A stretch of DNA of 64,000 nucleotides, taken from the NCBI GenBank assembly GCA_014871385.1, contig CM026428.1, positions 15,158,476-15,222,475 on the forward strand, in the 5' to 3' direction. Under the pieces are notes generated by a model. The model was not told where the DNA came from. It saw nothing but the letters and a program-made list of their open reading frames with translations, and ran no database searches. Source of the DNA: Ceratodon purpureus. Lineage: Eukaryota; Streptophyta; Bryopsida; Pseudoditrichales; Ditrichaceae. The position numbers and the translations under genes are program-made. Shown here in pieces: positions 1-63,487 of the stretch (its first letter is position 1; every line of letters begins with the position of its first letter).

Positions 1-109
1 GATGATAAAAAGCTATAGGACAAACCACTAGTCAATAAAAAAGAATTATGTATTGAAACAAGCAATAGTAGTGGACATTTTTGTAGAATTTATTACTTCA
101 TGCAATTAA

Positions 110-1857
110 CCCCTAAAGTTCCTTGACTATGTTTCACCAAAAAACACTCCAAAACTGCAATTTCCAATGTAAAAAGCATGAAATTTTAAAACAAACTTTT
201 TTGACAAGATTTTCGACTAGGTTGATACACTCTACCTTTTTTTTTTTTTTTTTCCGTTTTTTGCATTATGGATTTTAAAGGTTTTGATGCATATCAAAGA
301 AGACTAAGTTAGCTAACTGTATTAAAATAATTACACTCGAAAGTAAAGTGTAGCATGTTGAAAACAATATTTTTATTAACCCCTAAGTGCCCAGGAAAGC
401 CAAAATGGCTATCTGTTGTTTCGAGCAACCTAGATGAAGGGGTTAAAATTGATATTTTTGCCTAAGATTTTTACTATATGCTCCTGTACTGCAAAGTGTA
501 TGTGGTAAAATTTGCAAAGCCAAATTCCAATTTTAAGACCTTCATTTAGAAATTCTAGGTTTCAAGTCCAAAACGGACATCTTAAAATTAGGTTTTTTTT
601 TTAAAAAAAAAAATCTTGAAATATGTTCATGACCAAACCACCACTTAGATTCCAAAGAGACCCAAGTCAAAAAATATACCAACTTTACAAGGGCAGCCTC
701 TAAAAATTACAAAGACAAGCTTCAATGTTTTCATTAATTTTTTAATTACTTCTTTTAGAATTCGTCAAAATTTGAGATTTTGAAATTTTTCAAAAATAAT
801 TTCGCTCAGAAATCAAAAACTTATAAAGGCACCTAACCATCGTTTAGATTTTTTTAAAACCAATTATACGTAACCCAATTATGCATGTTTTACTATATCA
901 AAGGTTTCAGATCTACTTCTAGAAAACAATATTTATGAGAGCCAAACAAAGGAATGAATCTCTCAAATTTTCCACGGAGGTACTCAACTTGATTACCTAC
1001 ATGAAAAAAAATATGGGCAAAATGTTTGGAGTAACAATCTTCAACTCCCCCTTTGCACCATTTTCACTATGTCATTCAGCCAATGCCCAAAAAAAGTTTT
1101 GCTGCAACTTTGAATATTATAATCTCTAAGTTGGTAAACATCCAACGGCTCAAAAGTTTATCAGTACTTCTAAAGAAGGTTTAGTACAAGATCTTATGGC
1201 TGGATGTCTAAAAAAAGTAATTTTAAAAAATTAAAATCGTCGTTTCTACAAGGTGGTCAAAAATCATGTGTGCAGGTTTTGAGATCCAAAACATGCTTGG
1301 GCACTTAGGGGTTAAGTTGAATACACGAGAACGCTAAATCTTGTTTCTTTCCTAAAAATTCCAATATTCAATAAGGTCCCAATCCAAACCGTCAAGGTAA
1401 TGATTGATGTCCACATTTTCACTGAAAAAAAGAAAAAACCTATACTAATATTTCTTGTAAATTTTATGAAGGAAAGAAGATTTTTTTTTTGGTACACTGC
1501 CCGAAATGGTGAGAAAATTTTAATATTTTGTAGAGTGAATATTATGCACTCAAAGTCCTTTTTTTTTGGAAACCTCAAAGATGACATCATGAAGTATTTA
1601 TAGAAATATTTTTAGAGGTAATTGATGTATTTAACACGGCTGCCCAAATTGCCCATCGAACAACTTTTTCCACTTCAGGTACCATAACTGTTTTTATAAA
1701 TGTCCAATCAAAAGAAAAATAAATAAAAAAATCCCTCAAAGTTCTTGATATGGCCTACATTCACAAAAAGTTTCAAAAAATCTCGACTTCAATTGAAGTC
1801 ACAGGTACATGCCCGAATTCTAAAAAAGCCCATTCTAGGACAATTGTCCTTTAGGGG
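110..1857. mobile_element. TTAA-flanked non-autonomous element (copy T1), interrupted
   Basis: The left end reads CCCCTAAAGTTCC and the right end, read inverted, CCCCTAAAGGACAATTG. Both ends are bordered by TTAA (106-109 and 1858-1861). Removing the nested copy at 380-1311 and one TTAA leaves about 812 bp. The right terminal 80 bp closely match the right end of the element at 42541-43402. There is no long ORF; short ORFs inside are AT-rich noise. A non-autonomous DNA transposon is inferred. Confidence 0.75.
380..1311 (-). mobile_element. TTAA-flanked non-autonomous element (copy T2), nested in T1
   Basis: A 932-bp element with 14-bp perfect inverted ends (CCCCTAAGTGCCCA) and TTAA on both sides (376-379, 1312-1315). 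Its interior is the reverse complement of the element at 12251-13179; for example, the segment at 500-560 is the inverted counterpart of 13010-13075. The box AAGATCTTATGG lies 112 bp from its right end. It sits inside T1, so it is the younger insertion. Confidence 0.8.
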
Positions 1858-1861
1858 TTAA

Positions 1862-3434: not shown

Positions 3435-3790
3435 GTAAAGGAGGCTGGCATGATGACCCTCCACGACCCCGGCTGACCACTGAACCAGCTGGCACCCCAC
3501 TGCCCAATGGCAGCGCCGCTACGTACACGTCACTGGGCCCTGGGCAGTGGGCAGGCAGATCCACTACCTACCTACCTGCCACCCACACGAGTGCGTGCAT
3601 TGGGTTCCATTCCTTGTTCCATCCTCCGGCGTGCATCCTTCATCCATCCTACTTCGAGTGACGGCGCTGGATGATGGTAATCATTCGTCGTGCTTTGGGA
3701 GACGAGCTCTGTTCGTCAGCTGACGACCGTTACGAGTGTTGGGCTCGGGCCAAATGAATTCCCAGCTCGTGAACCCCATTGCAGACCAGT
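3435..3790. other. GC-rich island without ORF
   Basis: An abrupt rise in GC content against AT-rich flanks, with ACGT-type and CAGCTGACG-type short motifs and CTAC repeats (CTACCTACCTACCTGCC near 3564). No open frame of useful length is present. It could be an orphan promoter or a noncoding exon; direction is unknown. Confidence 0.3.
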
Positions 3791-6700: not shown

Positions 6701-6831
6701 TAAAGCCAGTTGACTTGTGGGCACATTTGCACACCTCATCTGGTTCCCTCCTCATCTAAGCTGCTAGGGTTGAAGATTCATCCGAATAAAAAATTGCTCG
6801 CAAGACTTCTCAACTCAATAGACTAGTCCTG
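3791..6831. other. Intergenic region and 3' flank of the syntaxin gene
   Basis: Sequence of moderate composition with small ORFs of 60-66 codons that show no family resemblance. The part nearest 6831 (about 6300-6831) is the likely 3' UTR and downstream flank of the minus-strand syntaxin gene. I see no other gene. Confidence 0.4.
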
Positions 6832-12047: not shown

Positions 12048-12250
12048 TAGTAGAAAAGTCCCTCAACTACACCTGGATGAACACCGAAAAGAGGTCTAAT
12101 TTTAATTTTTCCAAATGGTGTAGTGAGATTGCAATTGGGCACCACTCAGGTCTATTTCAGGGCGTCTAAAGAGGAGCGTTTACTGTTTGCATGGATCCAC
12201 TTGTATAATAAATGGCTTCCCCACCCATGTGACTCACGCCCTATATTTAA

Positions 12251-13179
12251 CCCCTAAAGGTTCAAGCCGTTTTTGGGCCTCCAAAACCAGAAACTGTGAT
12301 TTTTGACAACCTTGTAGAAGTTGAAGTATGATTCTCAAATTTTTACCTTTTTGATACATCCAACCGTAAGATCTTAAACCTTGCTACCTGCACTAATACC
12401 ATGTCAAATTTCAACGGTTGGATCTTTACCATTTGTGAGATTATAACGTTCAAAGTTTACTGTGTTTTTTTTTTTGGCTTTGCGCAAAAGACATACTCTA
12501 AATGGTGCCAAGGGAGACTTGATTATTGTTACCTCAAACATTTTGCTCATATTTTTTTCCACGTAGGTAACTAAGTTGGGCACCTCCATGCAAAATTTTA
12601 GAGTCTCATTACACTTTTTTGGCCTTCATGCAAATTATTTTCAAGAAGAAGGTACAAAAACCACAATCTGGTAAAACTTAAATGACGTGAAATGCTTTTG
12701 GTTTTTCAAAAAAGTAAACGGTCAAAAGTTACTTCCATGAGTTTTTGAATTTTCAGAAAAAAAAAATTTGAAAAATTCCTAAATCTCAAATTTTGACAAA
12801 TTTTGAAAGAAAAAATTGTAAAATTACCAAAAACTGTGAAGGTTGTTTCTGTGATTTTTGGAGGCTGCCCTTGTAAAATTGGTAAGCTTTTTGACTTAGG
12901 CCACTTTGGATTTTGAGTAGTGAATCGGTTATGAACACATTTCCAAAAAAACAATTCTAAAAAAACCTAATTTTAAACTGCCCGTTTTGGACTTGAAACC
13001 TAAAATTTCTAGATGAAGGTTCTAAAAGTGAAATTTGGCTTTGAAAATTTTACCACATACACTTTGCGGTATAAGGAGCATCCAGTAAAATTATTAGGCA
13101 AAAATATTACTTTTAACCCCTTCATCTAGGCTGCCCGAAACAGCTGAGAGCCATTTTGGATTTCCAGAACCTTTAGGGG
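12251..13179 (+). mobile_element. TTAA-flanked non-autonomous element (copy T3)
   Basis: A 929-bp element with 13-bp inverted ends (CCCCTAAAGGTTC) and TTAA on both sides (12247-12250, 13180-13183). It is nearly colinear with 59890-60817 and is the inverse of 380-1311. The box CCGTAAGATCTT is at 12364 (113 bp from the end), followed by ATAACGTTCAAAG near 12443. There is no transposase ORF. Confidence 0.85.
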
Positions 13180-13183
13180 TTAA

Positions 13184-17968: not shown

Positions 17969-18839
17969 TACTTTTGGAAGATCAACTTAGATTGAAAAAT
18001 ATTGATAGGAGAATGCCGCTCCCGAAGCGACGGATGCAATGTATATTTTCATTAACTGTACAGAATTTTTTGTCACGGAACGGATTATTTTGGAGCACCA
18101 TTTCTAAAGAAAGCAATCTGTGAAATATCATGGTACAGCTCAATTAACCTCACTGCCTGATCCTGTTCACACAATACACCCGCATCCAGATTCCAGAACT
18201 TCAACCCTGCCTCACAATTTGAATCTTGATGCATGGCAGGGGATTCAATAGCATTAGGCACGGAGCTCAATAGTTTTAGGCACGTGGCTCACTAATCAAT
18301 CCCCTATTCAGTGAGGTGCACGTGGTTTGTCGCTTAAAGAAAATCATTGAGAAGTTGAATCATTTAGAGAAACAGTGTCAAAAAGAAAGTCGCTGTAATC
18401 AGAGAACACCTCTTTTGTGTTAGAAAGGTCGTGCTTTGAAGTCACCAGTTTGTGCCGGATTTATTATCCAGTAAAAAACACAACTGCATGTGGGCCTCTG
18501 AATTCGAGTTATAGGCAACATAGATTAAGTTTGCCAGAAGGAACTAATTAGGATGATGAAACGTGTTACATATTGCATTAAAATAACTTCTCCTTGCATA
18601 CAACTTAGGTACCATGTAGAGTTTCAAGGAGGAAATAGAAGAGTGAATCGTTGTTACAGATTTCGCAAGTTTGAGGCTTCTCCCCATTAGTGGAGCTCAC
18701 GAACTATTACTGTAACACTGTTGGAACTGCTCAGTTAAGGGACTTGTAAGAGGAACTACAGTAGCTAGTGTGCCAGAGAGGATGAAGTTATCGTCGCATC
18801 GGAACTTTAGGGGATAAACAAGCTCTGCTGAATTTTAAA

Positions 18840-21001: not shown

Positions 21002-22309
21002 TCAGTTCAGCACATCTCGCCATTGGTAGACGCGATGGTTGGGTGCTGGTGAATAGCTCACCGGGGATGTTGCAGGTGAACCACCGTCCTCAGAAGAAGA
21101 GGACGCATGATCCAGGGTGTTGATGAAGCGGAGAGCCTCATCAAGCTCCGAGGACGGAACATGGAGGAGTCCATCGAGGTCGAAACTTTCGCCGGTGTTC
21201 CAAAAATAGGAATCCGAGAAGTCGCTGACATATCTCGCCTCCTCGGCTGATGATGAAGATGAGGGACTGGAGCATGGGCTTGTCGACGCTGACGTATCGT
21301 TGCCAATTTCTCTAAAACTGAATTGATCAACACTCGCACTACTTGCAGAACAAATCGCACTCGTGAGGTCTGTTGTCTTCGGGTGAAGCTTCGTCAGAAA
21401 ACCAGTTTCATTATTAGCCTCTACAATCTGGGAGTGAACGCTGTCGCCCCCGGTTGTGGCCAAAATAGTTTTCTGGTAATCAGTCTGAGTCTTCGCCTCG
21501 AGAGTTGGACTCGAGTGAGGTCTGTTGATGGGAAGTGCTGGAGTGACGTCGTTGTCGGTGTCGCTTGCCGCTTGTCCTTCGTGGTCTTCATTACGTGGCC
21601 GAGGGAAGTTGAGATTCGCCTGATCTCCGCGAAGCCTATATGCGGCCTCGTCGTATGCCTTGGCAGCCTCCACGGCCGTCTCGAAAGTTCCTAGCCATAG
21701 TCGTGTGCGCTTGCGGGGGAGCCGAATCTCGGCGACCCATTTCCCCCAGTGGCGCTGACGGACGCCACGGAATGGCTTGCTGAGTCGGGCCGTCTTCTTC
21801 ATCGCCTGAGAACGTGGAAATAGCGAGGAGTTAAAGGCCCCAGGATTTGTGAACTTTGCTTGGAACTGGACTTGAAGTTGGTGGAGACTTTCCTCTAAAG
21901 TTCTCGGTAGAGCCGCAAACTGCATGCTCCCCAGAAACTGCATCTCCGCAGGTGCCTCCACCAGAACAAACTGCTGGTCTCCTTGGTAACCCGCACCAGG
22001 GGCTCGCGTATGTGGGACAGCATTTGGGACGAAGACACCAAAATGCTGCCCTTCTGCTACGTTGAATGACAGAGGAGGCAGTGGTAGTGTGGGAAGTGAT
22101 GGCCGGGGATCCGAGATATGTACATATGGACCGGTAAATACCGGCATGTTGCCTGGATGATCCTCGTTGTTCCAAATTCCATCAGTCCCCCCGCTTGACG
22201 GGCAGGTGGGGAGACCACTGAAAGATGTGCCAACGAGGAAATTTGGCTCTCCACCAGGGAAAACAGATCCAGGCAACATGCCGGACACGGGACAATCACC
22301 CACAAACAT
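21002..22309 (-). CDS. AP2/ERF-family transcription factor (DREB A-6 / RAP2.4-like)
   Basis: A single-exon reading frame of 435 aa from the Met at 22309. One AP2/ERF DNA-binding domain lies at about residues 180-237: it begins [20 protein letters not shown], continues [14 protein letters not shown], and ends [11 protein letters not shown]. Val in WVAEIR and Leu before PRKRTR are typical of the A-6 (RAP2.4-type) DREB group, which acts in abiotic-stress and light-related transcription. N-terminal of the domain is a Pro/Gln-rich region. The C-terminus is Ser-rich, then acidic and hydrophobic ([18 protein letters not shown]), a plausible activation segment. The frame stays open up to a Met at 22420, but those 37 extra residues are hydrophobic (Phe/Leu/Cys-rich) and unlike a transcription factor, so I treat them as leader. 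A start at the next Met (about 22279) is also possible. Family is very sure; start is uncertain. Confidence 0.92.
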
Positions 22310-23639
22310 GCACAAAGGAAAGCCCACCAAGGAAAAAGATAAACAAAAACAAGGAAATGGAAATCCAAAAACACAAAGACTCGACAAGACAAGATTCAGA
22401 AACGGAATGAAACGTAGCACTGAATTGAACGAACACTATCTGACAGTCAACACACACAATCCCAAGGAAGAACCCGTATGTACATGAGTAGTGGAACGCA
22501 GGAAAGGCTACAACAAGAGAAGGATTTGCACGACGTGCCTAGCCTATCGAGTGAGTGCACAAAACAAAACTGAGGGCTTCACCCTCGCATCACCTCAATG
22601 AAACTCCATGACGGTGATGATCCCTCAGCTAACGAGCACAAAGCACAAAAAGCCACAACAGCAGGATACACAAAAACTAGCATGAACAGACAGAATGAAC
22701 GCAGAAAAAAAGCAAAAAGCAAAAACACAAAGTGAACTTACAAGGGTGATTTCATGACCAAGTGTACACCCTCACCCAGCCACCACTGCCGAAACTCAAA
22801 AGCCGATGCACCACCATCCACTACCATACACCACCATACATTCTCGTCATGTGCATGCGTCGGACTTGCGCTAAGTGTAAGTGACTAACCCCAGTGCCTA
22901 GCCTGGCGCGTGCAAAGTGCGTGCAAACTGCCGTGCTTCTAACCCCGAAGTGCCTAACCTACGAAGTGAGTGAGTGGAGCCTGCACACATGTCACTAGCC
23001 GAAGAATCTCCCCAGCACGGCTGATCCGAACCGATTCGAGAACACCAAACCGGCTCAGATCAATGCAACCCACATCAGACGAGAGATCTCCGTGACTAGC
23101 AACCAGTCCAACAAGCCCACTATCCTAACCCAGTGCCTAAGTGCAAGAAACGATCTCCCCAAACACCAGTCAGTGCAGCGGATGGCTCCAGAGAGACGCA
23201 GCGTCAGGAAAGAGAAAGAGATGAGTGCGACAAGAGACCCGCTTTGAGAGCTCTTATGAGAGGATCAGAATACACCACTACTAGCTAGGCTTGTCGCGAC
23301 GAGAACAGTAATCCTCCGACAGACTTCCTGAGGGGAATATCCACTGAGCCCTTGACTCACGTAAGTTAAGTCTTGTGTGCATGGATGGCCCATGCCGACT
23401 GATGACGTGCCCCATGTGGAAGCCCAAGCAAGGCACTTGCTGTGGTTGGTTGGGAGGGAAAATGGTAGAGACTGTAGACTACATGCACTATAGTAGTCGC
23501 AATATACTGTGACCGATCGAACACACTGGGGGAGTGATTACTGTGGTGATTCTCATCGGTGTATATTCTTCCTTTTTGAGCATGTTTCATGTTTTTATTT
23601 TATTTTACTCACAGTAGTTCTGTCTGTGTATCGGCCTGG
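22310..23639. promoter_or_regulatory. Leader and promoter region of the AP2/ERF gene
   Basis: GC is higher than the wider background and there is no convincing ORF. The motif GTGCCTA(A/G)CCT or a close variant recurs on the plus strand near 22536, 22892, 22948 and 23128, some copies followed by GAGTGAGTG. This probably holds a long 5' UTR and the promoter of the minus-strand gene. The transcription start cannot be fixed by eye. Confidence 0.4.
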
Positions 23640-23960: not shown

Positions 23961-26900
23961 TCAGATTGCTGCACCAGAAACCGCCACTTTCTGGGGCCTT
24001 TTTACTTGTTAAATGGCACAATCGGTGTGGGGAAAAATACACCCAAATTGGACAATCATAGAGGATATGGACCCAAAAAAATTCAATTTTTTGGAGTTGT
24101 ATTGAATTTGTTGTGAATTTTTATAGGTCTAAATACTAAGATTTTAGTAATTGATACAAGGAGGTTATCAAAATTAATTATAGGTGTATCAAAAATCAAT
24201 AAGTCTAAATCATGTTGGTTTGAGTTTTTTTTATGCTTACACTAGCCATTCTTAATTACTAGTGCACTTAGGCACCAATGCATAGTAGTTGGTCCTACAT
24301 AGTTTTTGATGCTTCTACCTTAGACTAACATGATCTAGTAACAACTTCATCTCTAAATTCACTTTAATTTTTTATTTGATTTTTAAAATTAAATTAAAAA
24401 CAAAGAAGTATAGATCAAAATTGAAATCAAGATGTGTCAAAGAATGTGAAGTTATATGTCTTTATGTCCGTTATATGAGTACTTTGATTTGTTTATGGTA
24501 TATCTGTATTTGGTGTTCATTTTCTTTTACTGTAGAAAATAGGAGTTATCGGGAATATTTTTATTTATGATTTTGTATAAAATTTCAAATTAATATTGAA
24601 TATCAAAGTTAAAGTACTTCTATAATAGAATATATAAAGATTATTCCTTGTTCGTATCATGTGGTGCTAATTTTCAATCATGACAATACATTAAATCACC
24701 ACCTTCTTCTTGCCAAAATTTGGAATGTTACTATTGGATTTGTTCTTTTTGAAATAGTGACTTGTGGTGATTTTGAACTTCATGGTAAGAAGTGCCAAAA
24801 TTGGTTTGTAGTTTACTTCCTTCAAAGTTGGGTGGTGCTCATAGAAAATACTAACTAATGTACTAAAACTTAGACAAAAATAACCTATAGGAAAAAATTT
24901 TAAGCATGATGTTTAGAAGGTAGTCACACATTCAAATTTGTAAGTGAATTTAAAGTTTTTTAATTTTGAAATTCATCTAAATTAGGATCTCAACATGTCA
25001 AATTAGACATGTTTCTAATATCACTAAGATAATGTTAAAAATGTCCTACCTTTAAAAAATATCTAAAAATATTTTACTTTTATTAGCATAATTATGGTAA
25101 GTAGCCATGATTTCTTTCTATAGTGATATTTTATATTTTGAAAAAATATATTACATAAAAAGTGTAGCTACTAGAAAATGGTCACTTTTAAACTTTGTAA
25201 TTAACTTCTAAAGAACCATTTACAATTTGGATAAGCTTCTATGATGTTATTTTAGGATGTGGTTTTTCAAAACTTTTTTAAGAGGTAGAAAATTGTAAAA
25301 GAATCGTAAATGTCAAAATTATTTTCCTACACGTTGGAAAAGTAATTATGTTGCTCAAAATAGTTTTTTTGTTCAGCAGGTAGCTAAGGCAAGTGTATTA
25401 CATCCTTCTATGACTTATGCACTAAATACATGAAAGTTTATAGAAATAAAGAAATGTTTAACCCCTAATCTGCCATAGTCCTAGAGAGAGTTTCTTGAAA
25501 TTTTGAGCAGGTTCCAAAGATGTCATTGTGATATGAAGACATATGGAATCACAAGAGCTTCACGGGATTTTTTTTTTTAAACACTAGACATTGGCATCAA
25601 AACTCATTGAAAAATATTCTTATGTATACACTTTGGAAGTGATGGACTTTGGGCTATGACTTCAAGCATGAAGATTGCCATGTCAAACTTGCAACCTTAG
25701 AATCACTTTACATCAAGGGGCCGAGCCAATCAATAGAGTGAGAAGTTTAAATTCCTCACTTGTGCTTGGCTAAAAGGCAGAAATTTCCCCAATTCCTTTA
25801 AATTTAGAGTCAGGGCTAATTTTGGTGGTATGAATTTTTTAATAAAAAAATTCAAGTTCTGACATGGCATGCGCTTCATAAATAGGGTGCACCAAAAATG
25901 GAAGGCCAATTCTTTGTCTTGGAGCCAATGTCAAAGTTGAATATGAAAACTTTTTCAATTAAAAAAAATATTTCAGCCAACAAGGTTGATTTGCAAGGCA
26001 ACAAAGATTTGATACCTTCACAGTGTAGGCATGAGGAGAAAGTTTCCATAGATTTGGTCTACCTCTTTCTTCCTTCTTCCTTCATGTCTATCCAACCCAA
26101 TTCTTGTCCCGAGACCATTGCAGTAATTTTCAACGCAAACACCAATTGCTATTGAAATGAAATCCAAATTACCTCTTTGCTATGTTTTTGGTCGATGTAT
26201 GTGATGTACGTGTGTAGATACTTTTTTGAGGCTACATGCTCATTTGATTCTGGTGATTCTTGGACTTAATTACAATAACCACCACAACATGTTGCACAAC
26301 TATGAAGAACACAAGAGCAACTAAAATCTTATGTCTTTGTTCATCCATTTTGTACAAATGGCTATAAAGAGAGAGAGGGAAAAAAATGAAGCTATTTCTT
26401 TTTAAAGATTTTTTAGATTGGCCAAGTTTCTTGGCCGCAAGGTCTTACATATGGGAAATTCGGCCCAATTATACTCTTCTTATAATGGTTAATTGAGACC
26501 AACCTCCACCCCAAAATGGACTAAAATTTCATGTAATTTATATTTAGGCAAATTGCATTAAAGGAAATCTAGGGTCTCTAAAAGGCCTTTGAGTTTTCCA
26601 CGTGCATGAAATTTTGGTGAAACCCATGCACTTTATCCTGCTGGCACCAATGGTGCCACGAGGTCGCCAACAGTAAATTTTGTACGTCTAGCCAATCACC
26701 GACAGTGCCGGCGTGTGCCAAAACTATCAGCGCACAAACAGTGCGAGCACTAATGACATTGCCAGCACTGTGGCTATTGACGCTCTTAGCGAGCATGACA
26801 TCCATCAATGGGATTATATAGAGAGGTATGCGTGGGCAGCACGTTCACCTACTTTGGGTTGTCTTACAAGGCCTTTTGAAGACCCCACATTTCTCCTAAT

Positions 26901-31434: not shown

Positions 31435-31552
31435 GGGTCTCTTTAAAAAACCCCGTCAAGCGGTGCGCACGGGCAGCCATCCGGCCGTCCGTCAGGGCCC
31501 TCCACTGTCTGCTCCCCTCCCGCCCTTTTTTGCCTGCTCCATCTCCACCTTT

Positions 31553-31690
31553 CCTCCGCTCCCCTCCGCACCCTCGTACCTTACAGCGACTCCTCCCCTC
31601 CGCACCCTCGACGCACATCGCAGCAACTCCTCCATCCGCACCCTCGCACCTCGTAGCGACTCCTCCCCTCCGCCCATCTGCCGCCCTTCC
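31553..31690. repeat. CT-rich tandem repeat in left arm of the Mutator-like element
   Basis: Three to four imperfect units of about 35-45 bp carry CTCC(C)CTCCGCACCCTCG followed by a CAGCGACTCCTC-type segment. The inverted arm holds the matching copies at about 32935-33035. Repeats inside arms are common in Mutator-like elements. Confidence 0.6.
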
Positions 31691-32340
31691 GTCGCTCACT
31701 ACTCTCCCTTGCATTCGCCCTTGCTATCGCCCTCGCCCTCTACTCGTGATATGCTCGCCTCCGTAGCTGCTGCAGTTGCCGCCGCCTACCAGCACGCCCC
31801 TTCATCCCTTGCCGCTCACCCTCACCCTCCTTGTTGCCTTGCTCGTGATCTTTGTCTTTGTTCTTGTAGTCGTATTTAAGAGTATTTATTTCAAACAAGC
31901 TCAGTTGTATAAATCGCAACCAGGATGCAACTCTCAAAATCCGGTAGCTCACTCTAGCTCACTCATGATTCCACTTGGACATCACAAGTCACTCCCACCG
32001 CACTTTCTCAACAGGGGTAAGGTTGTGTAACATATGTTGGTAACATTGGATCATGTTGGAACCTTGCTTCGCAAGTAAGGTTTCATGGACTTGACAACAA
32101 CTCAAATCACAAACTTATTGATCACATAATTTAATAATGCATTTGCAAGACAAGTTCTTCCAAGTGATGAGTCTGTTCTAGCACTAGAACGATTTCAAGT
32201 ATTTATCAAGGTTCAGACTGGGAGAAGATGTGCATATTGTCAAAAATGTCGGGAATTACTAAAACCCTTCCTTTCACAGTACAATTCAAGGCTATGATAT
32301 TCCAAGCCAAAGGAATGATCAAGTCTCAATCATAGCTATA

Positions 32341-32671
32341 AGGTAGTGGCACCCACTCCCGTGGGTATAAGAGAATTGCACAGTTGTAGAATAAGGAAAC
32401 AATTTGCAACCAGATAGGAAAGAAGGCGAATACAAAACAAATAGGATCGTGAGAAAAAATCCATGAATATCAAAGGGTTTGAGTACAATCTGGTCCCTCA
32501 AATAGGAAAGTGGTGAGGCACCCCTAACCGTGTCAAAGTGGTGCCACTCCTGTGAGCACAGGACACACATTACACGCTACCGGATTGGTGTGCCCACTCA
32601 AAGTAAAACGGGATGGAATGCCGATGTAGTGCACGGCAGTGGGCACACCACGGGAGTGGGTGCCGCTACCT
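32341..32671. mobile_element. MITE, AGGTAGYGRCACCC family (copy F1)
   Basis: 331 bp with inverted ends AGGTAGTGGCACCCACTCCC / AGGTAGCGGCACCCACTCCC and TA on both sides (32339-32340, 32672-32673). It contains an inner related motif (GGTGGCACC-like, around 32535-32550). It shares termini with 42010-42365. No coding capacity. Confidence 0.75.
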
Positions 32672-33627
32672 TACATATTACGTTGTCTTCCTGTTCTGAA
32701 TTTTACAGATCTGTGTGTCTTGAAAAAATTGTCTTGTTGCTCCGGCATTTTGGAGCTGAATGATTGATGTTCTGTTCCTTGTGTATGTATGATACAGATA
32801 GGGGCGAGGGATGAAGGGGCGTGCTGGTAGGAGGCGGCAACTGCAGCAGCCACGGAGGCGAGCAGATTAGGAGTAGAGGGCGAGGGCGATAACGAGGGCA
32901 AACGCAAGGGAGAGCAACGAGCGATGGAAGGGCGGCAGATGGGCGGAGGGGAGGCGTTGCTGCGAGGTGCGAGGGTGCGGAGGGGAGGAGACGCTGCAAA
33001 GTGCAAGGGTGCGGAGGGGAGTGGAGGATGGGCGGAGATGGAGCGGGCGAAAAAGGACGGAAAGGAAGCAGAGAGTGGAGGGTCCCGACGGACGACCTCT
33101 CATTTAGCCGGATGGCTGCCCTTGTGCACCGCTTGACAGGGGTTTTTAGAGAGACCCATCGAGAAGTAAAGTGAGATAGTGGGTAGGTTAAATGTGTATT
33201 TGGTACAAGTTTTGCTTCCAAGCTATGAATCCATATTTAATGGTTGGAATGTGTATGTCTAATGAAATTAGTTTTGTAATATATAGTAGATTGACACTAT
33301 TGGTAAGAAATTTAAAGGCATGTGGAAGTTGGAATGATGAACTTATTTTTGGGATATAACTAAATATTTTCTATATAAATTTACACACCTTTATCTAAGC
33401 TTTTAGAAATTTTTAATCTATTTATTTTTATTTTGTAAAAAATTACAAATATTTAGCTTATAGTCTTGGGCTTTTGGCTTGGTTTTAAGACTTAATACTT
33501 AAACATGCCAAAGAATTCAATTTTTGCATTTTAAAGCATTCTTTTAGCCCAAGAATTTGAACTTTTGCCATAAATCAAGATGAAGACTGATAAAAAGATA
33601 TTAGATTTCAGTATATAAATAATCTAT

Positions 33628-40796: not shown

Positions 40797-41104
40797 GGGG
40801 GAGTTTCATTATTTTAAGATGCCTGGGCATCAAATGGGGTCCAATGAAGTGCTAAGTTACAGTTTGTAGTGGGGCCGTGTGAATCGGTTACCTGCCAGAA
40901 ACATGCAATGCACTTTAAAGCTAAAGCAAGTCAAGCCGAAAGCCTAATATGCTGGGCAATGCTTCCAGATCCCATCCCTCCAACAGGATAAGTGTTGCAA
41001 CAGTGGAGCTTCAAGGTCTGAAGCTGCACGATGATTTTATTTTTTATTGTTTTGGATCCCTGCACGATGGTTTGAAGGGAAGGGCAAATTGCAATGAGTT
41101 TTAA

Positions 41105-42007
41105 GGGGCGGTTTACACTACGGACCATGAAGATATCCCAAGAGAATTAAAATGATTTCATGGTCACGGCTCTTGGTCTAGAGCTGTGACCATGAAAAAA
41201 AAAATCATTTTTTAAATGTCTTGGTCACTTGTCATGGTGTAAAGTGGATTTGGACCGGGACGACTTTGGGCTAAATTTTTCAGATTTTGGCCAATCATTG
41301 ATTTTGTGCCCAACGGTCCCCTTGTTTTCCGTCGAGTCGACCTCTTTAGGGGCGGTTTACACTATGGACCGTGGACATTGACCATGGCCCTCTAAAATCT
41401 GTGATTGGCCAAGGAAGTTGTCCCGGTCCGACTTCGCTTTACACTACCTTGAAAAAAGAAGATTGACCACAAAGTTTGAGGTTACCAAAATGTGTTATTT
41501 TCTACCTAGTGGATAATGTTTCATGGTCCAACGGGTTTTTAGTCGAGTCGAGGTAAAGAGGTCGACTCGACGGAAAACAAGGGGACCGTTGGGTACAAAA
41601 TCAGTGATTGGCCAAAATCTGAAAAATTCAGCCCAAAGTCGTCCCGGTCCAAATCCGCTTTACACCATGACAAGTGACCAAGACATTTAAAAAATGAGTT
41701 TTTCTTTTTCATGGTCACGGCTCTAGACCAAGAGCCGTGACCATGAAATCATTTTAATTCTCTTGGGATATCTTCATGGTCCATAGTGTAAACCGCCCCT
41801 TACCTCGACTCGACTAAAAACCCGTTGGACCATGAAACATTATCCACTAGGTAGAAAATAACACATTTTGGTAACCTCAAACTTTGTGGTCAATCTCCTT
41901 TTTTCAAGGTAGTGTAAAGCGAAGTCGGACCGGGACAACTTCCTTGGCCAATCACAGATTTTAGAGGGCCATGGTCAATGTCCACGGTCCATAGTGTAAA
42001 CCGCCCC
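41105..42007. mobile_element. MITE E (outer copy), interrupted by its own twin
   Basis: The ends GGGGCGGTTTACACTACGG and (inverted) GGGGCGGTTTACACTATGG are bordered by TAA (41102-41104, 42008-42010). Without the inner copy and one TTA the element is 449 bp. Three-base TAA/TTA duplication and GGGG ends suggest a PIF/Harbinger (Tourist-like) MITE. No coding capacity. Confidence 0.88.
41349..41799. mobile_element. MITE E (inner copy), inverted, inserted in the outer copy
   Basis: A 451-bp copy that is the reverse complement of the outer element. It is inserted at the outer copy's internal CCTCT-TTA-CCTCG site, which is intact within the inner copy itself (about 41546-41560, inverted). TTA is duplicated at 41346-41348 and 41800-41802. 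The four half-elements therefore alternate X-Y-X'-Y', giving two overlapping fold-backs. Confidence 0.9.
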
Positions 42008-42009
42008 TA

Positions 42010-42365
42010 AGGTAGCGACACCCATTCCCGTGACTTTAAGCTAATTATCATACTCCTAAATGAACAATATGAAAAGTAATTATACCGTTGGAAAGGCAAT
42101 TAGATATTAATTTAGAATGTATCGAAAAAGTCATGAAATTATAAATATTGTGTACGTTATCAATAGTCAAAGTCAAAAATTGATTTGCACATGTTGACTG
42201 TGTCTAAATGGCCTTGATTCCGTGACTTGGAGAAGCAATTTCTGCCATGAAAAGTTCTTTATAATAGCAAATTTCTTCAACCACCCAAGATCAGAGTCAC
42301 TCGGATTGAGGTGCCCTGTATGCAAACGGAAACGGGTGCAGTCACGGGAATGGGTGTTGCTACCT
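42010..42365. mobile_element. MITE, AGGTAGYGRCACCC family (copy F2)
   Basis: 356 bp with inverted ends AGGTAGCGACACCCATTCCC / AGGTAGCAACACCCATTCCC, flanked by TA (42008-42009, 42366-42367). It shares termini with 32341-32671. Its left edge abuts the outer MITE E, whose TAA duplication overlaps the first base of F2. Confidence 0.8.
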
Positions 42366-42450
42366 TATAGGTGATGAGGAACTCTCTGAGAGGTTCAGAT
42401 CCATTCGTGGGATTAGGCACTTCATTTTACTGTAAATGAGATAAATTAAA

Positions 42451-44121
42451 CCCCTAAAGTCAAAATGAGCCCTCACAGGGTCAATTTGACTTTGGTCAGG
42501 TCAGGCTCTCAGTTACTAAATATAGATCGTACAAACTTAACCCCTAAAGTTCTGAGGGTATTTTTCTTCAAAACTGCCTCAAAACAGCCCCTCTTCAAAG
42601 CAAGGTGAATTTTGCAAACTTGGGGTCTTTTTTAGTACATCTAACCGTAAGATCTTGTAGCTAACTTCTATGTCTACATGTCCACCAAATCTCACACACT
42701 CATTCCTCACCAATTGCAAGATGATAACGTTCAAAGTAGAAAAACAAGTTTTTTTTTCCCTGCAGAAAAAGAGGACAACAGAGTTTTGAAGGCCCAAAAA
42801 ACCATTTTTTAAAGTAGATATGGAATGAATCTCTTCATTTATTGCTCCTAAGTGAGTTAGGTACATGTCCAAAAAATATTATATTCAAAAAAGTTGTGGA
42901 AGGTTTCCAAAAGAATCATTTTCCGCTAACAGGTATGCTGAAATTCACATACAGAGGCCGTTTTTTGACAATAAAAATAACATATGAAAAATTCTTGGAT
43001 TGAAAATCCAAACAGTGGAAACATGCTCTATTATATTCTCTATAAATATATTTTATTTTTTTTGAAAAATAACAAAATCTCAATTTTTGGTGGAATTTAA
43101 AAGTTTTGCCTTTGGGCAGATTTTGGCAGATTTGGGCAGTTTTGGGCAGAATTTGCTGCATTCACAATGGCTTAGAAAATTTCAGTACCTACCCAACGAG
43201 CAGCGTTTGACACTTAAACCCTCATAACTTTTGCATCGAGTGTTGGAATTGAAAAAAAAAAAAAAAAAAAAAAAACCCACACGTAGCTCTCGTTATGGTA
43301 TACCTTCAATAAAATTTTCATAAAATCTCGATTAAAATTGCAACTGAAGGTACATGCCCAAGTTTCAAAAACGCCCATTCTAGCACAATTGTCCTTTAGG
43401 GGTTAATTTTCTTTTGGAGATTGTGGAATTTTTTCATACGTGTCCAATAAGACCATTCAAGCTCCAAAATTCCTTATACTTTAGGAGATATACGCAGTCA
43501 AAGTTTGAAAGCATCATTAGGACATGCTGAAATCTGCCCAAATCATGCTCATATATCCTTAAAACCTGCCCAAAATCAAATAGATCTCGGAAACTTCAAA
43601 AATTCACCAAAAATTGAGATTATGTTTTTTTCAAGTTTTTCTTTTTTGAACATGTAAATCTAGTTTTAAGGCATGATCTCGCCGCTCGGATTTTTAATCC
43701 AATATTTCTGTATATGCCTTTTTAATTATCAAAGACTTGGCCTTTGTATTTGAATTTCAGCATACGTTCATGTGAAAAGTCAAGCATTTCTTTAGGTTTT
43801 ACAGGTTGTATGAGGCTAAAAAGTGCATGGACATATGCCTATACTCACCTTTACTTTTGAAATTGATTACTTTGGCTTATGAAACACTTCAAATCCATTT
43901 TACAACAAGGATAAAAAACTATTTTCCAACTTTGGATATTGGATCTCAAAAACGGTAAGGATTTTGAATTTATGGCTTAGGGTACACGTACAAATTCAAG
44001 TAAAGTAGTAGATCCTACGATTACATCCCCAAAATACATCAAAACTTGAAAATTTACACATTGTATTGAAAGAGGCCGGTTTGAGAGATTTTGACACTTT
44101 TGAGGCCTTTTGACTTTAAAG
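42451..44121. mobile_element. TTAA-type element (copy T5), interrupted
   Basis: The left end CCCCTAAAGTCAAAA and right end (inverted) CCTTTAAAGTCAAAA form decayed inverted repeats. TTAA follows the right end (44122-44125), while the left border reads TAAA. Without the nested copy at 42541-43402 it is about 805 bp. Next to it, at 44126, GCCCTAAGTGCTCAG looks like the terminus of a further T2-like copy. Older and less certain than the other copies. Confidence 0.5.
42541..43402 (+). mobile_element. TTAA-flanked non-autonomous element (copy T4), nested in T5
   Basis: 862 bp, starting CCCCTAAAGTTCTG and ending ...CAATTGTCCTTTAGGGG, with TTAA at 42537-42540 and 43403-43406. The box CCGTAAGATCTT is at 42645 (104 bp from the end), and ATAACGTTCAAAG at 42724. 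The right 80 bp match T1. Contains a 20-plus A tract near 43252. ORFs inside are chance. Confidence 0.8.
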
Positions 44122-44125
44122 GTTA

Positions 44126-45155
44126 AGCCCTAAGTGCTCAGACAACCATCTTCTGGTTGCTGCCTGAAACCAAAGAATATTTTTTTGGAATATATATATC
44201 TATCAAGTCTGCTTTCCAACACAATTTGAATCAAGTCAATCTAATTTAAACTCTACCCGTGAGAATTTTCCAAGTGAATCACTTCAACATTGTCTAAGTG
44301 ATATCAAATTTTCTATTTGGATAAATTAATGATGGTCCCTCCATCATTTTTTTCTTCTTGAACTTTACAATAGATAAACCAAATTTAATCAATAATGCTA
44401 AATGTGGAACTCAAAATTTGAAAGTATAATTTCTACAAATTTTCAAAGGTTAACAATTATAAATTTACTAAAAAAAGAAGTAGATATGTTTTTGGAATTT
44501 TGATTATACTAATTATTTGTGGAAATGATGCCTACATTTTATTTATTGAATCAAATATCATCAAACATACAAAAGGCACATATTATAGCACATCTGTGTT
44601 TTGTCCAATACCACTCAAGCTTTTAGAGGTTAAACTTTGTATATTTTGTAAATGCATGCACATACCTATTAGAAGATGGAAAAAAAAAATTGAGTTATTT
44701 TGTGAATTTTAAAATGATCCAATAAAAAATCATATAATGGCATAACAAATCATGGAACTTCAAATCTTCTGTCACAAGTGCATATCACAATGAAGGGTAT
44801 TATGGTGAATGCAAACCATCCATTCATCTCAAATTAGAAAATCCACCACCCTATGGTAATAATACCAAACTTGAAATTCAACAAAATATTTGATATTGAC
44901 ATTTTCTAATTGCATACAGTCCTTTGCTTTTGCCACTTCTCCTTCACAATGATTATTTTTTGATAAATGGTCAAATTTTAAATTATTCAAATGTGATCAT
45001 AAATGTGATTTTGATAATAAAAACCTTAAAAATCTATTAAATTAAAATAAAATTCTCCAAGTGGGAAACATGTGTCTTTGGGAAAGGGCTTCCCTGGATG
45101 TATAAACCAATTGTGCACATCTGGTAGCTGCTCCAAGGTGCAACGATGTGGACTA
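44126..45155. other. AT-rich intergenic DNA
   Basis: Apart from the T2-like terminus fragment at its left edge, nothing recognisable. Confidence 0.4.
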
Positions 45156-57960: not shown

Positions 57961-59889
57961 GATGGTCCCTGGATTTCACATACTCAGACTTGCTTTCAAA
58001 ATGGGAGTAGAAACTTTTCGAGCTTGAATCCAACCGCATTGGATATGCATATCGTTCACGTCATTGATGGTGTCGATTGCGCTTGATCCCAGCAAACGCC
58101 GCACCCAGCAATCATTTCGGAAGATATTTTTCTTCTTGATGTGATGGATCCCTTGAAGTACTATTGCCCTTTGTGTAGAATTTGGGCTAAATAGTCACAC
58201 CTTGAGTTGGGCCATTGGTCCGAACTTTCTTCAATTGCACGCTTGGTTGTCGTTGGGATTGTGCAGATGACCATGTTGGTTATTTCGCCTCAACTCTGCT
58301 TGTTGCTGACCAAGCTTGATCTAATGTAGCTATTGCTCCACTTGCTCATCCTTCAATAATCAACACATAAAAACATCAGTCCCTCTCTGAGTTGCTCTCC
58401 AGATTACAAGACAGCCCACAGAGTATCGTCAGGACAACCTCTTTTAACAGCCATTGCACAAATCCCCCACTTATTCCTTCACACCACAACAAAGAGAAAC
58501 GAAAAGATTCCTACAAGAATTCAATTAGAAGAAAACAATGAGGACTTGTCACATACATAGCATCGTAAGCAGACCATTACAACGCCATCGATCACTAGCA
58601 AAGCAACACTATGAGGACCCAATCTACTAGCTCCTGTGAAGCTCTGAAATACAAAGCACAACCAAACTACTCACTGCGACACACCAAAGAACGGCAGAAT
58701 GGTGTCAACAGGTTCAAACTTCTAAGAATCAATGGGAACTTGCCTGCAAATCTCACTTGGCCCAGGTGCTGGAATGTGGAATGAGAACTGAGGATTGAAG
58801 TGAAATTCTCCAGATACTTATACTCACAACAACATTGCCCACTCTGTGAAGGATCCCAGCACTATATAAAAATGACTGAAATACACGGTGAACTTGTGGT
58901 CTGTTTGAAAAATAAATTTTAAAAATGAATGCACAGTGGAGGAATCTGGGTGAGAGGGACCGGACGCCCCGACACGACTCAACCTGGTATTAATCTCGTC
59001 GGTAAGAACGCGGGTTCACCTGACCACCGAGACGTGGTAACGCGCTGGACGAGCTGTAATTAGTACGGGTATCTCTCTTTCAACGCGCTTGCTCACAGAT
59101 TATCCTTCCAAGGGAAAATTTAGCTCAGGTGTCGTACCTTCTACTCATTCTGCTTTGGAGTGGCTATATCTCAACTTACCCATGTTAACTTAACGTGTTC
59201 AGTTTATCTTCACATTCAACGTCGATCACATTCAACGTTATTCAGTATGTATTCATGGTCTTCTCCAAATTACTATTGCTGAGGAGGAGCGAGTTACCAA
59301 GTTATGCATTGGTTTGATCGACGCTTGCCATGCTGCCAGCTCTGAATCAGGCTAGGAGACTGCACAATTATTGTTTTCATCGCTCTGAAAGTCGAGGGGT
59401 ATTCTGTGGACTCAGCGTCTGTACACGCTTTGCGCAGTTGTTAGGAAAGGCTTGAGTGGTACAATTGCTCCTTTTGAGCAGCCCCGACCACTTGCATCCG
59501 AAACTAAGGGACTCGTAGATCTGTGCCCTTCACGACAGGAGATGTACGGCAGAGGCAGAGGACACTGTTCCAATTAGCTTAAAACAGGTGTTCAGGTATG
59601 TAGAGCAAAGATTGTTTTTTTTCCTTTTCCATTCGAAGTTCTAATTCTAAGAATCCCTTTGTCTCTCACTTTTCTCGGCGCTTTTTTTCCCACAAATTAT
59701 GAGTCAAACTACATAGACTTAATATATGGAGTAAGTTTCCTAACTCAATTGTCTAAGGGTAAAGAATTACTCGGTTTAATTCCTAAAGAATCAAGTAAAC
59801 TTAAATAGATTTTGGCAATTTTAGTTTGACACAATCCTTACTTGTGTAATCTTTGATTTTCTTGAATTCTTTTTAAGATAGGGATTTAT
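57961..59889. other. Intergenic DNA of mixed composition
   Basis: No supported ORF. The part at 58940-59110 is GC-richer and promoter-like, but no gene start is linked to it. Confidence 0.35.
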
Positions 59890-60817
59890 CCCCTAAAGAT
59901 TCAAGCCGTTTTTGAACCTACAAAACCAAAAACTCTGATTTTTGACAACCTTGTAGAAGTTGAAGTATGATTCTTAATTTTTTAATTTTTTGATACATCC
60001 AGCCGTAAGATCTTAAACCTTGCTACTTGCACCAAAACCAAGTCAAATTTTAACGGTTGGATCTTTACCATTTGTGAGATTATAACGTTCAAAGTTTACT
60101 GTTTTTTTTTTTCTTGACTTTGCGCGAAAGGCATACTCTAAATGGTGCCAAGGGAGACTTGATTATTGCTACCTCAAAAATTTTGCTCATATTTTTTTCC
60201 AGGTAGGTAATTAAGTTGAGCACCTCCATGCAAAATTTTAGAGTCTCATTACGCTTTGTGGCCTTCATGCAAATTATTATCGAGAAGAAGGTACAAAAAC
60301 CACAATCTGGTAAAACTTAAATGACGTGAAATGCTTTTGGTTTTTTTAAAAAGTGAATGGTTAAAAGTTACATCCATGAGTTTTTGAATTATTGGAAAAA
60401 ACAAATTCGAAAAATTCCTAAATCTCAAATTTTGACAAATTTTGAAAGAAAAATTTGTAAAATTACCAAAAACTGTAAAGGTTGTTTTTGTGATTTTTGG
60501 AGGTTGCCCTTGTAAAATTGGTAAGCTTTTTGACTTAGTCCACTTTGGATCTGGAGTAGTGAATTGCTTACGAACACATTTCAAAAAAAAAGTTCTAAAA
60601 AAACCTAATTTTAAAGTGCTCGTTTTGGACTTGAAACCTAAAATTTCTAGATGAAGGTTTTGAAAGTGAAATTTGGCTTTGAAAATTTTGCCACATACAC
60701 TTTGCGGTATAAGGAGCATCCAATAAAATTCTTAGGCAGAAATATTACTTTTAACCCCTTCATCTATACTGCCCGAAACAGCCGAGAGCCATTTTGGATT
60801 TGTATAACCTTTAGGGG
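59890..60817 (+). mobile_element. TTAA-family element with TTAT target duplication (copy T6)
   Basis: 928 bp, colinear with and very similar to 12251-13179. It starts CCCCTAAAGATTCAAGCC and ends ...ACCTTTAGGGG. The four bases outside both ends read TTAT (59886-59889, 60818-60821) in direct orientation, so they are a target duplication and not part of the inverted repeat. The box CCGTAAGATCTT is at 60003 (113 bp from the end). No transposase; the 156-codon minus ORF inside is AT-rich noise also present in broken form in T3. Confidence 0.88.
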
Positions 60818-60821
60818 TTAT

Positions 60822-62969
60822 ACAAGATTTGTGGGATTTAATTTTTTTTGTTTATTTATTTTTGGACAGTGAACATCAAAGCAAAAATTATGCTATCCAA
60901 TGAGATTTTAAAAACTTTTGGACAATTTGGGCAATTATGCAACACCTTTCTATTACCCTTGAGATTCTTTTTACAATAGTTTACATAGACTTCTTGAAGT
61001 TGTCAAAATTACCTTTTGATGATGCATAAATTTCATTCCAAGAGGTACCAAAGTTTTAACATAGTGGTAGAGAAGGTGCAAAAAGACCTTTTCTTCCTCC
61101 ACATTTCTAGACATAAAAATAAGAGATTTTGTATTTTTTTTTAAATCTTAAATTCATATTTGACTACTTAAAGGACAAACTATAATCTTTGTAATAAGCT
61201 TTCAATTAGAATTTTTTAAAGATTGAATTCACAAAAAAATGTAAATGACATAGTTTAAGACCTCTTTCTATTACAAGAATTTTTAACATACTCCAGTTCA
61301 TGTGAAATTTCCAAATCTAATATAAATAGAACCAAACATTAAATGGATTGTGATAGATAAAAATACAAATTTGACAAGTGCAAAAATGTTGTTGTCTTTA
61401 TTTCAATTGCTAAAATTTTCAAAAATAAACTTCCACATTCTTTTTGTTGTTACTAATAAGGTCATATGAATGTAAGTGAAAAGGAAATAATTTTTTTCGT
61501 TTGTGAGCTTAATAAAAATTAAAAGTATTTTTACATAAATATAAGTCAAGAACTTTTAAATGCTAAATATTTGAATTCATCAAAAACTGTGATTTTCATT
61601 TTTGAACAAATATTGACAATGAAATACATGTAATAAGTCAATAAGAATGGCATGACATAGATGTATTTATGTTAAGAAAAAAAACAAACCACAAATACTA
61701 CTACACAATCACATCACATTAAAAGTGATCTAAATAAATAAATAAAAACCATTAACACACAAAAGACACTTAAATTAGATAGAAATACCTATTTCAATTT
61801 TAAAACATAATTTTTACAACCACTTTTAAGGCGTAACACTATTTGCATGACATTTTAGAGATGAAAAATATTCAACAACATTTTTTTCCAAAATTATTTG
61901 GATGAAAAAAATAATTTTGGAAAAAAATGTTGTTGAAGTGAACACCATTAGATTAAACTATTTCAAAAGAAGTTCAACTTGGTCAAGTTTTAATCATATC
62001 TAAATTAAAAAAACAAATCAACATTTTTCTAGTCTAAAAAATCCACTATTTCAAGAAATTAACAATGTTATAAATTTTTTTTTTCATTTTTTTCTTAAAG
62101 ATGTGGCTAATGATATTAACTAATCAAATGAAATTTAAAGTACTAAAGATAGACATTCAAATCTTTGATAAATTTTCTTAAACACAATACATTGAAAATA
62201 ATTAACAAAGATTGAATATAATTTTTGAATTTTCAATCTTTTTGTTAATTTCTAATCATAATGATTTATATTCTTTTTTCTATAACGAACTTCATTGAAA
62301 TTGTAGAAATCATATATTACAAAACATTTAAAAAACCAAGGTTTGCAAGGGTTAATATGCACTCGAAGAAACTAAAATAATTATACATTTTGTACTTCCA
62401 AATCACATGAAAACTCAAAAGCGTATGCACATGACCTTGAAGCATCAACCAATAAAATTAAAGAATTTCAATTATAAATCATCAAATTTGAAAACTTTAA
62501 CAAATAGATGAAAATGGACCTTGTCATTTCCAAATGTGCAATTATTTAAACTCGTAAAACAAATTTAAAAATGACCTTTGAAGCATTATAAGCATTTTAT
62601 CATCCATTAAATAGCATATAAAAAAATTATTTATCTTAGAATACAACTAAGAATATCATTCAAATGGGACCTTTAAATACAAAGTATTAACAAGAAACTT
62701 ATTAATAAAGCAAACAACTACTAGTGTCGCTAGCCATAGAAAGACAAAAAATCAAAGGGGAAAAAATATGATTTGGCTGTATTTGAATCTCTTTCATTGA
62801 AGTATTTATTTTGATGATGCTGAATACCTTAGCTACATCTAAGATTTGGTACAAATATAATTAATATGGTCTTCTTTGAGATAGTGCAATCTCTTCAATA
62901 TAATTTAATTCATTTAAAAATAAAAATAAAGTCTAAAAAGTGTGTTTATGTCACACATCAAGTTCTTAA
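60822..62969. other. Very AT-rich intergenic DNA
   Basis: No ORF of interest. Holds the perfect hairpin at 61871-61937. Confidence 0.5.
61871..61937. repeat. Perfect 29-bp inverted repeat (hairpin)
   Basis: The arms, TTCAACAACATTTTTTTCC continuing to AAAATTATTT (61871-61899) and its exact reverse complement (61909-61937), are separated by a 9-base loop. Could be a tiny fold-back element, a small-RNA precursor-like hairpin, or an inverted duplication from replication slippage. Confidence 0.85.
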
Positions 62970-63487
62970 CCCCTAAAGTTCGTTGATTATGTTTCAAAGA
63001 AGTTAGTCAAAAACTACAATTTCTGGTCCACAATATGTGTAGAAGATGAAAAAGTTATTTTTAGAATTACCACCGTAAGATCTTGAAGTTAGCACCTATT
63101 ATGATGTCATGGAAAAAATTGAACATTTTTTACCGAGCGGATTGCTAGATTATAACATTTGAAGTTCAAAAAATGTTTTTTTCAAAAGGTGCCCAAGAGG
63201 ATCAGCCGTGTTTGACTGCGTGTCGTGTGAGATTCTTACACCAAAGAGGTTGGGATTTTTGGGAATTCCTACTAATCACTATATAATGTACATGCGTTCC
63301 AAATTTGAGAAAGATTGCACAAATATAACCATGCGAAAAAAAGGCTGCAATTAGAACATCCTCCAAGTTTTTGTCCAATTACGTATGTGGTTTTCATTTT
63401 TTTTCTCCCTGTGGTTTTTAGAACAGTTTGCGAATCCCAACGGTCAAATTATGAATCACACAAGCACTTTCTATTTTTTTTTTTTTT
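62970..63487 (+). mobile_element. TTAA-family element, right end missing (copy T7)
   Basis: Starts CCCCTAAAGTTCG after TTAA (62966-62969), with CCGTAAGATCTT at 63073 (103 bp in) and an ATAACATTTGAAG-type box near 63152. No right terminus is seen before the abrupt change to GC-rich DNA at about 63490, so the copy is truncated or interrupted. Confidence 0.6.

Follow-up and report, generated by a model that had tools for sequence, protein, structure and literature searches.

Introduction

The piggyBac superfamily of DNA transposons is well known in animals, has been domesticated into animal genes, supplies one of the leading tools for gene delivery, and has seldom been documented as native to plants; the TTAA targets for which it is noted are not unique to it, being shared with Kolobok and Sola3. 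The closest described systems, piggyBac of Trichoplusia ni (PDB 6x67) and piggyBat of Myotis lucifugus (PDB 9c0f), combine a TTAA target and CCC-type ends with a DDD catalytic core and a C-terminal cysteine-rich domain, and the elements of the moss Ceratodon purpureus described here resemble them in each of these respects. Short, non-coding MITEs have also been classed with piggyBac, both in animals such as corals (PMC2872659) and in angiosperms (PMC10004981); as far as the accessible text of these papers goes, the short moss copies are of the same kind and differ in having transposase-bearing relatives within one and the same plant genome.

With respect to plants, the available portions of the literature name piggyBac for 'plants' in general (PMC10140906), list it for angiosperm MITEs (PMC10004981), include it in a fern repeat table (PMC6890710), and report the T. 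ni element as a tool used in rice and not yet tested in Physcomitrella (PMC5505980). The original prediction, which described piggyBac as little known from land plants, was thus fair, although the superfamily is not unknown there (PMC10140906, PMC10004981), and there is published precedent for piggyBac in plants. In the open-access literature, which does not include the main Ceratodon genome paper, we found no description of a native moss piggyBac in the text available: neither the fern paper (PMC6890710) nor that on the T. ni tool (PMC5505980) describes one, and two further leads, the word 'piggybacking' in PMC10619864 and a reference entry in PMC5253467, were discarded for the same reason.

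Short elements in the window

The window, that is, the whole 64-kb stretch of C. purpureus DNA analysed here, contains five complete elements (106-1861, 376-1315, 12247-13183, 42537-43406, and 59886-60821). The predicted non-autonomous element at 59890..60817 (plus strand, 928 bp) is flanked by TTAT at 59886..59889 and again at 60818..60821 (both plus strand), such that 59886-60821 reads TTAT-CCCCTAAAG...CTTTAGGGG-TTAT, with CCCC...GGGG ends; reading this stretch bears out the directly oriented TTAT flanks on which the proposal of piggyBac-like mobility had been built. Its longest open frame (60249-60731, minus strand) is without a Pfam match. Together with the copy at 12247..13183 (plus strand, 929 bp plus a TTAA at each side), to which it is 92-93% identical in four gap-free blocks, and a diverged copy at 376..1315 (minus strand, TTAA at both sides), it forms what we denote the A family. 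The B family comprises 106..1861 (plus strand, ~816 bp without the A copy at 376-1315 that is nested within it) and 42537..43406 (plus strand), both with TTAA at both sides. The A and B families are related, and the single family originally envisaged therefore has to be replaced by at least two.

At least seven copies had been said to begin with CCCCTAA(A/G) and to sit at TTAA. Those at 110, 380, 12251, and 42541 are indeed ends of complete elements, whereas the one at 42451 is preceded by TAAA. We propose, short of proof, that the sequence at 42451 would best fit the worn left end of an older outer element (42447..44126, plus strand) with ends TAAA-CCCCTAAAGTCAAAA and TTAA-CCTTTAAAGTCAAAA, which was entered and interrupted by 42537-43406; a possible degenerate element (44123..44633, plus strand) abuts this candidate, with one TTAA common to both. 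The copy at 62970 stands as the left end of a related element (62966..63300, plus strand), in which 137 subterminal bp are 70% identical to the transposase-bearing locus L019, but not as a complete element, given that no right end was found up to the end of the window. A single B-like terminal sequence (25458..25520, plus strand) is 80% identical over 60 bp to an end of locus L020, and no partner end for it was found in the window.

Counts of the terminal motif in the window point in the same direction: TTAACCCCTAA with at most one mismatch occurs 16 times versus 1.6 expected, a number reached in 0 of 100 shuffles, and exact CCCCTAA occurs 19 times, preceded by TTAA in 10 cases and by TTAT in two. 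One of the latter is the end at 59890; the other lies at ~18813-18817 on the minus strand, with no partner end found in the window. A blind scan of the window for TTAA pairs 150-3000 bp apart with inverted repeats, which by design does not see the TTAT copy 59886-60821, returned eight pairs, four of them with CCCC starts, versus six pairs and one CC start in a control scan with AATT, TATA, and ATAT.

Several other features of the window were recorded. One protein encoded in it matches proteins of mosses, at 45% for Physcomitrium and 42% for Ceratodon. A Pfam scan of 10 of its 25 open frames gave one match, an AP2/ERF domain in a 477-aa open frame (21002-22435, minus strand). A fold-back element at 41080-42030 consists of long nested inverted repeats, with 211-nt arms that are 100% complementary and others at 94-96%; its ends read ACCG-CCCCTAA, and its site is not TTAA. 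An inverted-repeat pair at 31483-33097 has 185-nt and 128-nt arms that are 90% and 85% complementary, respectively.

Genome-wide distribution of the A family

The assembly to which the window belongs (362.5 Mb, 151 contigs) contains 359 A-family left ends at up to three mismatches, and 476 exact matches to the 17-base A-family end with TTAA, TTAACCCCTAAAGGTTC; the reversed control gave 0 in both searches. Against these 476 exact ends stand only eight ends with a different fourth base (5 TTAT, 3 TTAG) and nine with a different first base (6 ATAA, 3 CTAA), which attests to a TTAA target preference; three of the six ATAA ends belong to TTAT copies, as the opposite ends of L029, L031, and L032. 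In the majority sequence of 20 aligned copies, CCCCTAAAGGTTC forms a perfect terminal inverted repeat of 13 bp, comparable to the 14 bp given for T. ni piggyBac in the accessible text of PMC10140906. These 20 copies diverge from the majority sequence by 2.6-10.2%, and the A family is thus older than the youngest autonomous elements described below. One further contig (C66:40100-41300, L033) carries the A insertion of the window copy with its flanks, 96% identical over 1213 bp, and represents either a segmental duplicate or a redundant contig.

Target-site duplication

The flanks of 50 genomic A copies and two window copies were read. In a first set of 42 copies, the right end was unreadable in three (L034, L041, and L061), and the 39 copies with both ends comprise 31 with TTAA/TTAA, five with TTAT/TTAT, and one each with TTAT/TTAA, TTAG/TTAA, and TTAA/TTAG. 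With L033, one of the five TTAT/TTAT copies, excluded from the test because it counts as the window copy's own locus, TTAT on the left was matched on the right in four of five copies, versus none of the 33 others (Fisher p 6.8e-5), which had been picked by their left end (32 TTAA, 1 TTAG).

A later set consists of 10 copies picked for an odd flank, of which four (L070, L072, L073, and L075) had an unreadable other end. The remaining six read, left/right in element orientation, ATAA/ATAA (L069), TTAA/CTAA (L071), ATAA/TTAA (L074), TTAA/TTAG (L076), CTAA/TTAA (L077), and CTAA/TTGA (L078). Across both sets, both ends could be read in 13 independent copies that have a flank other than TTAA, and the two sides match in five of them: five of the seven with TTAT or its complement ATAA, and none of the six with TTAG, CTAA, or TTGA. 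The eight mismatched copies, namely L030 (TTAT/TTAA), L074, and all six with TTAG, CTAA, or TTGA, are read as later mutations; L030 and L074 in particular look like point mutations of one flank.

The target-site duplication is 4 bp long and normally TTAA. In four independent TTAT copies the two flanks vary together at the fourth base, and in L069 they do so at the first; the duplication thus takes in all four positions. Of the seven independent TTAT/ATAA copies, five have the same four bases at the other end, as the original prediction of a 4-bp duplication would have it. This covariation in the flanks of genomic copies is not predicted by a 2- or 3-bp duplication. Two empty-site comparisons were less informative: L019 versus L020 did not give a clean result, and for the nested pair in the window (376-1315 in 106-1861) the underlying alignment was poor. 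The original prediction was right to mark piggyBac as inference, because one TTAT copy alone could be a point mutation; chance mutation as the cause of TTAT is now rejected on the five matched copies out of seven.

The same data bear on two other superfamilies. PIF/Harbinger MITEs would require a 3-bp TTA/TAA duplication plus one unmatched base; such a duplication is usual for plant Tourist MITEs, according to the available portion of PMC10004981, and TTAA sites taken alone are compatible with it, but the joint variation of the fourth base on both sides of TTAT copies, and of the first base in L069, contradicts it, and the full-length relatives, which were found with the PF13843 profile, carry the PF13843 domain. 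Hence this explanation, which had already been judged to fit less well, appears extremely improbable. Tc1/mariner MITEs with a TA duplication and an ACCCC...GGGGT repeat would fit the TTAT copy at 59886 taken singly, if it had acquired a point mutation, and one-sided changes do occur (L030, L074), but the two-sided match in five of seven independent TTAT/ATAA copies and an outer T that is nearly fixed (476 exact TTAA ends versus nine with another first base) leave them next to no likelihood.

Transposase-bearing relatives

A search of the genome for PF13843 gave 998 candidates, of which 116 were scored, all 116 above the cut-off (best E 5.3e-84). From these 116 places, 20 loci and a further eight short loci were opened; the 20 loci, of 10 kb each, were chosen by score, long frames, and near-identical copies rather than at random. 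At 16 of the 20 (L009-L011, L014-L016, L018-L026, and L028), the transposase frame lies inside a TTAA-flanked CCC-type inverted repeat spanning 3.9-6.8 kb, with an ambiguous partner end in three (L019, L024, and L025); L017 has only a doubtful 8.7-kb end pair, and no end pair was found within the fetched stretch at L012, L013, and L027. Exact TTAACCCCTAA stands at both ends of seven loci (L009, L010, L011, L018, L019, L020, and L028); the ends are CCCTTAA in L014, L015, and L023 and CCCCCTAA in L021 and L022, and those of L016, L024, L025, and L026 are mixed or changed in some other way. Thus, longer elements with the same kind of ends that encode a PF13843 transposase, for which the original prediction had suggested a search, exist at these 16 loci. 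They are larger than the known piggyBac (2472 bp), and their stop-to-stop frames reach 923-1207 aa in 13 of the 14 opened elements, versus 594 aa.

L009 and L010 are 99.1-99.5% identical and L014 and L015 99.1%, and the open frames of these four span 923-1073 aa; such near-identical pairs with long open frames suggest, at the sequence level, recent movement. Some PF13843 copies contain stops, and the frame of L023 is broken. At L018, an element at 1914-7232 and an adjoining copy from 7229 form two transposase-bearing piggyBacs head to tail with one TTAA in common.

The affinity of the proteins is apparent from several comparisons. In a PDB search, a moss transposase matched piggyBat 9c0f at E 3.8e-27 and piggyBac 6x67 at E 4.6e-25, and the catalytic aspartate positions of both align with the moss proteins; counted with a constant offset of six in the alignment, the three aligned aspartates are D237, D309, and D413 of piggyBat, the residues given as its active site in the available part of PMC11707139. 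These three aspartates and five cysteines are invariant in 13 aligned proteins (seven from this genome, six from databases), and the alignment accordingly contains both the DDD catalytic triad and the cysteine-rich C-terminal domain; the Pfam zinc finger PF13842 was seen only below cut-off, in P0019. Taken together, Pfam, PDB, and alignment place the moss proteins in piggyBac.

This placement weighs on the remaining alternatives, another TTAA-targeting superfamily (Kolobok or Sola3) or the superfamily Lanisha. The latter, likewise a cut-and-paste DNA transposon, is said to have been first described from C. purpureus, and two of its three proposers reportedly sequenced Ceratodon. Its proposers were Maumus, McDaniel and Carey (Repbase Reports 2020, cited in PMC12730594), and the accessible text of PMC12730594 assigns it to the EnSpm-like CMCT group, most of whose members have CA..TG ends, with a transposase in which the motifs C(2)C and H(3-4)H lie between the second D and E. 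Lanisha was rejected because it is EnSpm-like (PMC12730594), whereas the transposases here match PF13843. For Kolobok, Sola3, and Lanisha together, the PF13843 and PDB matches, which point to piggyBac, reduce the probability to a vanishing one.

Kinship between the window copies and the transposase-bearing piggyBac elements is seen in their ends. Counting from its TTAA, the A copy at 12247 shows 68-69% identity to one end of L009-L011 across 336 bp; the other end of these elements shares 80% identity with 56 subterminal bp of 376-1315. Among the B copies, 106-1861 resembles L018 at its ends (79% identity over 112 bp and 92% over 25 bp), and 42537-43406 does so at its right end (79% over 139 bp). 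Since the window copies share end sequence with transposase-bearing elements, they can be regarded as non-autonomous piggyBacs. For the A family and L009-L011, 68% over 336 bp would signify kinship and not proof of a partner, and the comparison, which covered 14 elements, yielded no autonomous partner closer to the A family. With end similarities of 68-80%, moss transposases may move both the A and the B families.

An additional N-terminal domain

Unlike piggyBac and piggyBat, 14 of the 20 moss loci have a conserved stretch of ~55 aa (for example, L010:6882-7322, minus strand; L016:2327-3079, plus strand; L015:6828-7034, minus strand) N-terminal to the transposase, inside the transposase frame in L014 and L015 and in an upstream reading frame elsewhere. 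Its pattern, written by eye, is LDExxLxxLPxPKKxxxWPxxPxxxNxRxxFRRQxAxLLGWxER. Of the 20 loci, 12 gave a match in a first round with phmmer (E up to 0.015) and 14 in a second round, for which a profile was made from these 12; L012, L013, L018, L019, L020, and L028 gave none in either round. Six reading frames with the domain gave nothing above cut-off in Pfam, apart from two weak matches at chance level, and the profile gave no match in the PDB. The domain was also absent from 158 scanned database relatives, but many of these are fragments of one reading frame, in which an upstream exon would be missing.

When the genome was searched with the L016 domain, with 150 of 178 candidates scored, at least 96 matches were obtained at E up to 0.001. 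Together with the 116 listed PF13843 matches, these form 25 pairs at distances of no more than 8 kb, versus 0.5 expected by chance; every one of the 25 has the domain 1190-2122 bp upstream of the transposase match and on its strand, and no pair has it downstream or on the opposite strand. We infer that the upstream frame is spliced to the transposase frame. Contig C6 (110.5 Mb), which we take to be the likely sex chromosome, makes up 31% of the length of the 13 large contigs and holds 16% of the 116 listed PF13843 matches and 34% of the 96 listed N-terminal-domain matches, both lists being those of the best-scoring matches.

Relatives of the moss transposases

Database searches with the moss transposases returned 53 and 294 proteins. 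No land-plant name appears among the 53, nor among the best 120 of the 294, although most entries are without an informative name, so that this absence carries little weight with regard to plants, and the closest relatives among the matches listed are unnamed metagenome or sequence-archive proteins. In a FastTree phylogeny of 71 sequences, drawn with a midpoint root, all 12 moss sequences join many unnamed ones with support of 0.987, apart from the named animal sequences (beetle, ant, bee, and a EukProt entry that, judging by its code, is presumably a sponge).

Mechanism and implications

With PF13843 genes found within TTAA-flanked CCC-type ends in the same assembly, and end sequence in common with the window copies, the original assignment to piggyBac has held. 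On the ends, 4-bp duplication, target preference, copy number, transposase relatives, and catalytic and cysteine residues, all of them read directly from sequence, the window copies are almost certainly non-autonomous, MITE-like members of the piggyBac superfamily in C. purpureus, presumably moved by the DDD transposase of longer elements. In such a scheme, a piggyBac-type transposase supplied from elsewhere in the genome would bind the common ends, the element would be excised at the CCCC/GGGG tips with TTAA overhangs, and it would reinsert at another TTAA, or occasionally at TTAT, after which the four target bases would flank it on both sides; the cutting and joining presumably follow known piggyBac chemistry. 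Our verdict on the window copies is that, as non-autonomous piggyBacs, they are ordinary, and that what is unusual is their host.

The new part is the diverse moss clade with its unnamed N-terminal domain; a recently active moss clade with such a ~55-aa domain was not found in the open-access literature. Tentatively, and at somewhat less than even confidence, we suggest that mosses may harbour a piggyBac branch of their own that is deep, diversified, and recently active and that gained a branch-specific N-terminal domain, mostly via a spliced upstream exon, and that this domain could steer target choice, chromatin contact, or transposase regulation. Having long copies that are nearly identical, transposase frames that are intact, and non-coding copies in the hundreds, the moss offers a natural plant host in which the movement, silencing, and domestication of piggyBac, along with the candidate extra domain, can be studied.
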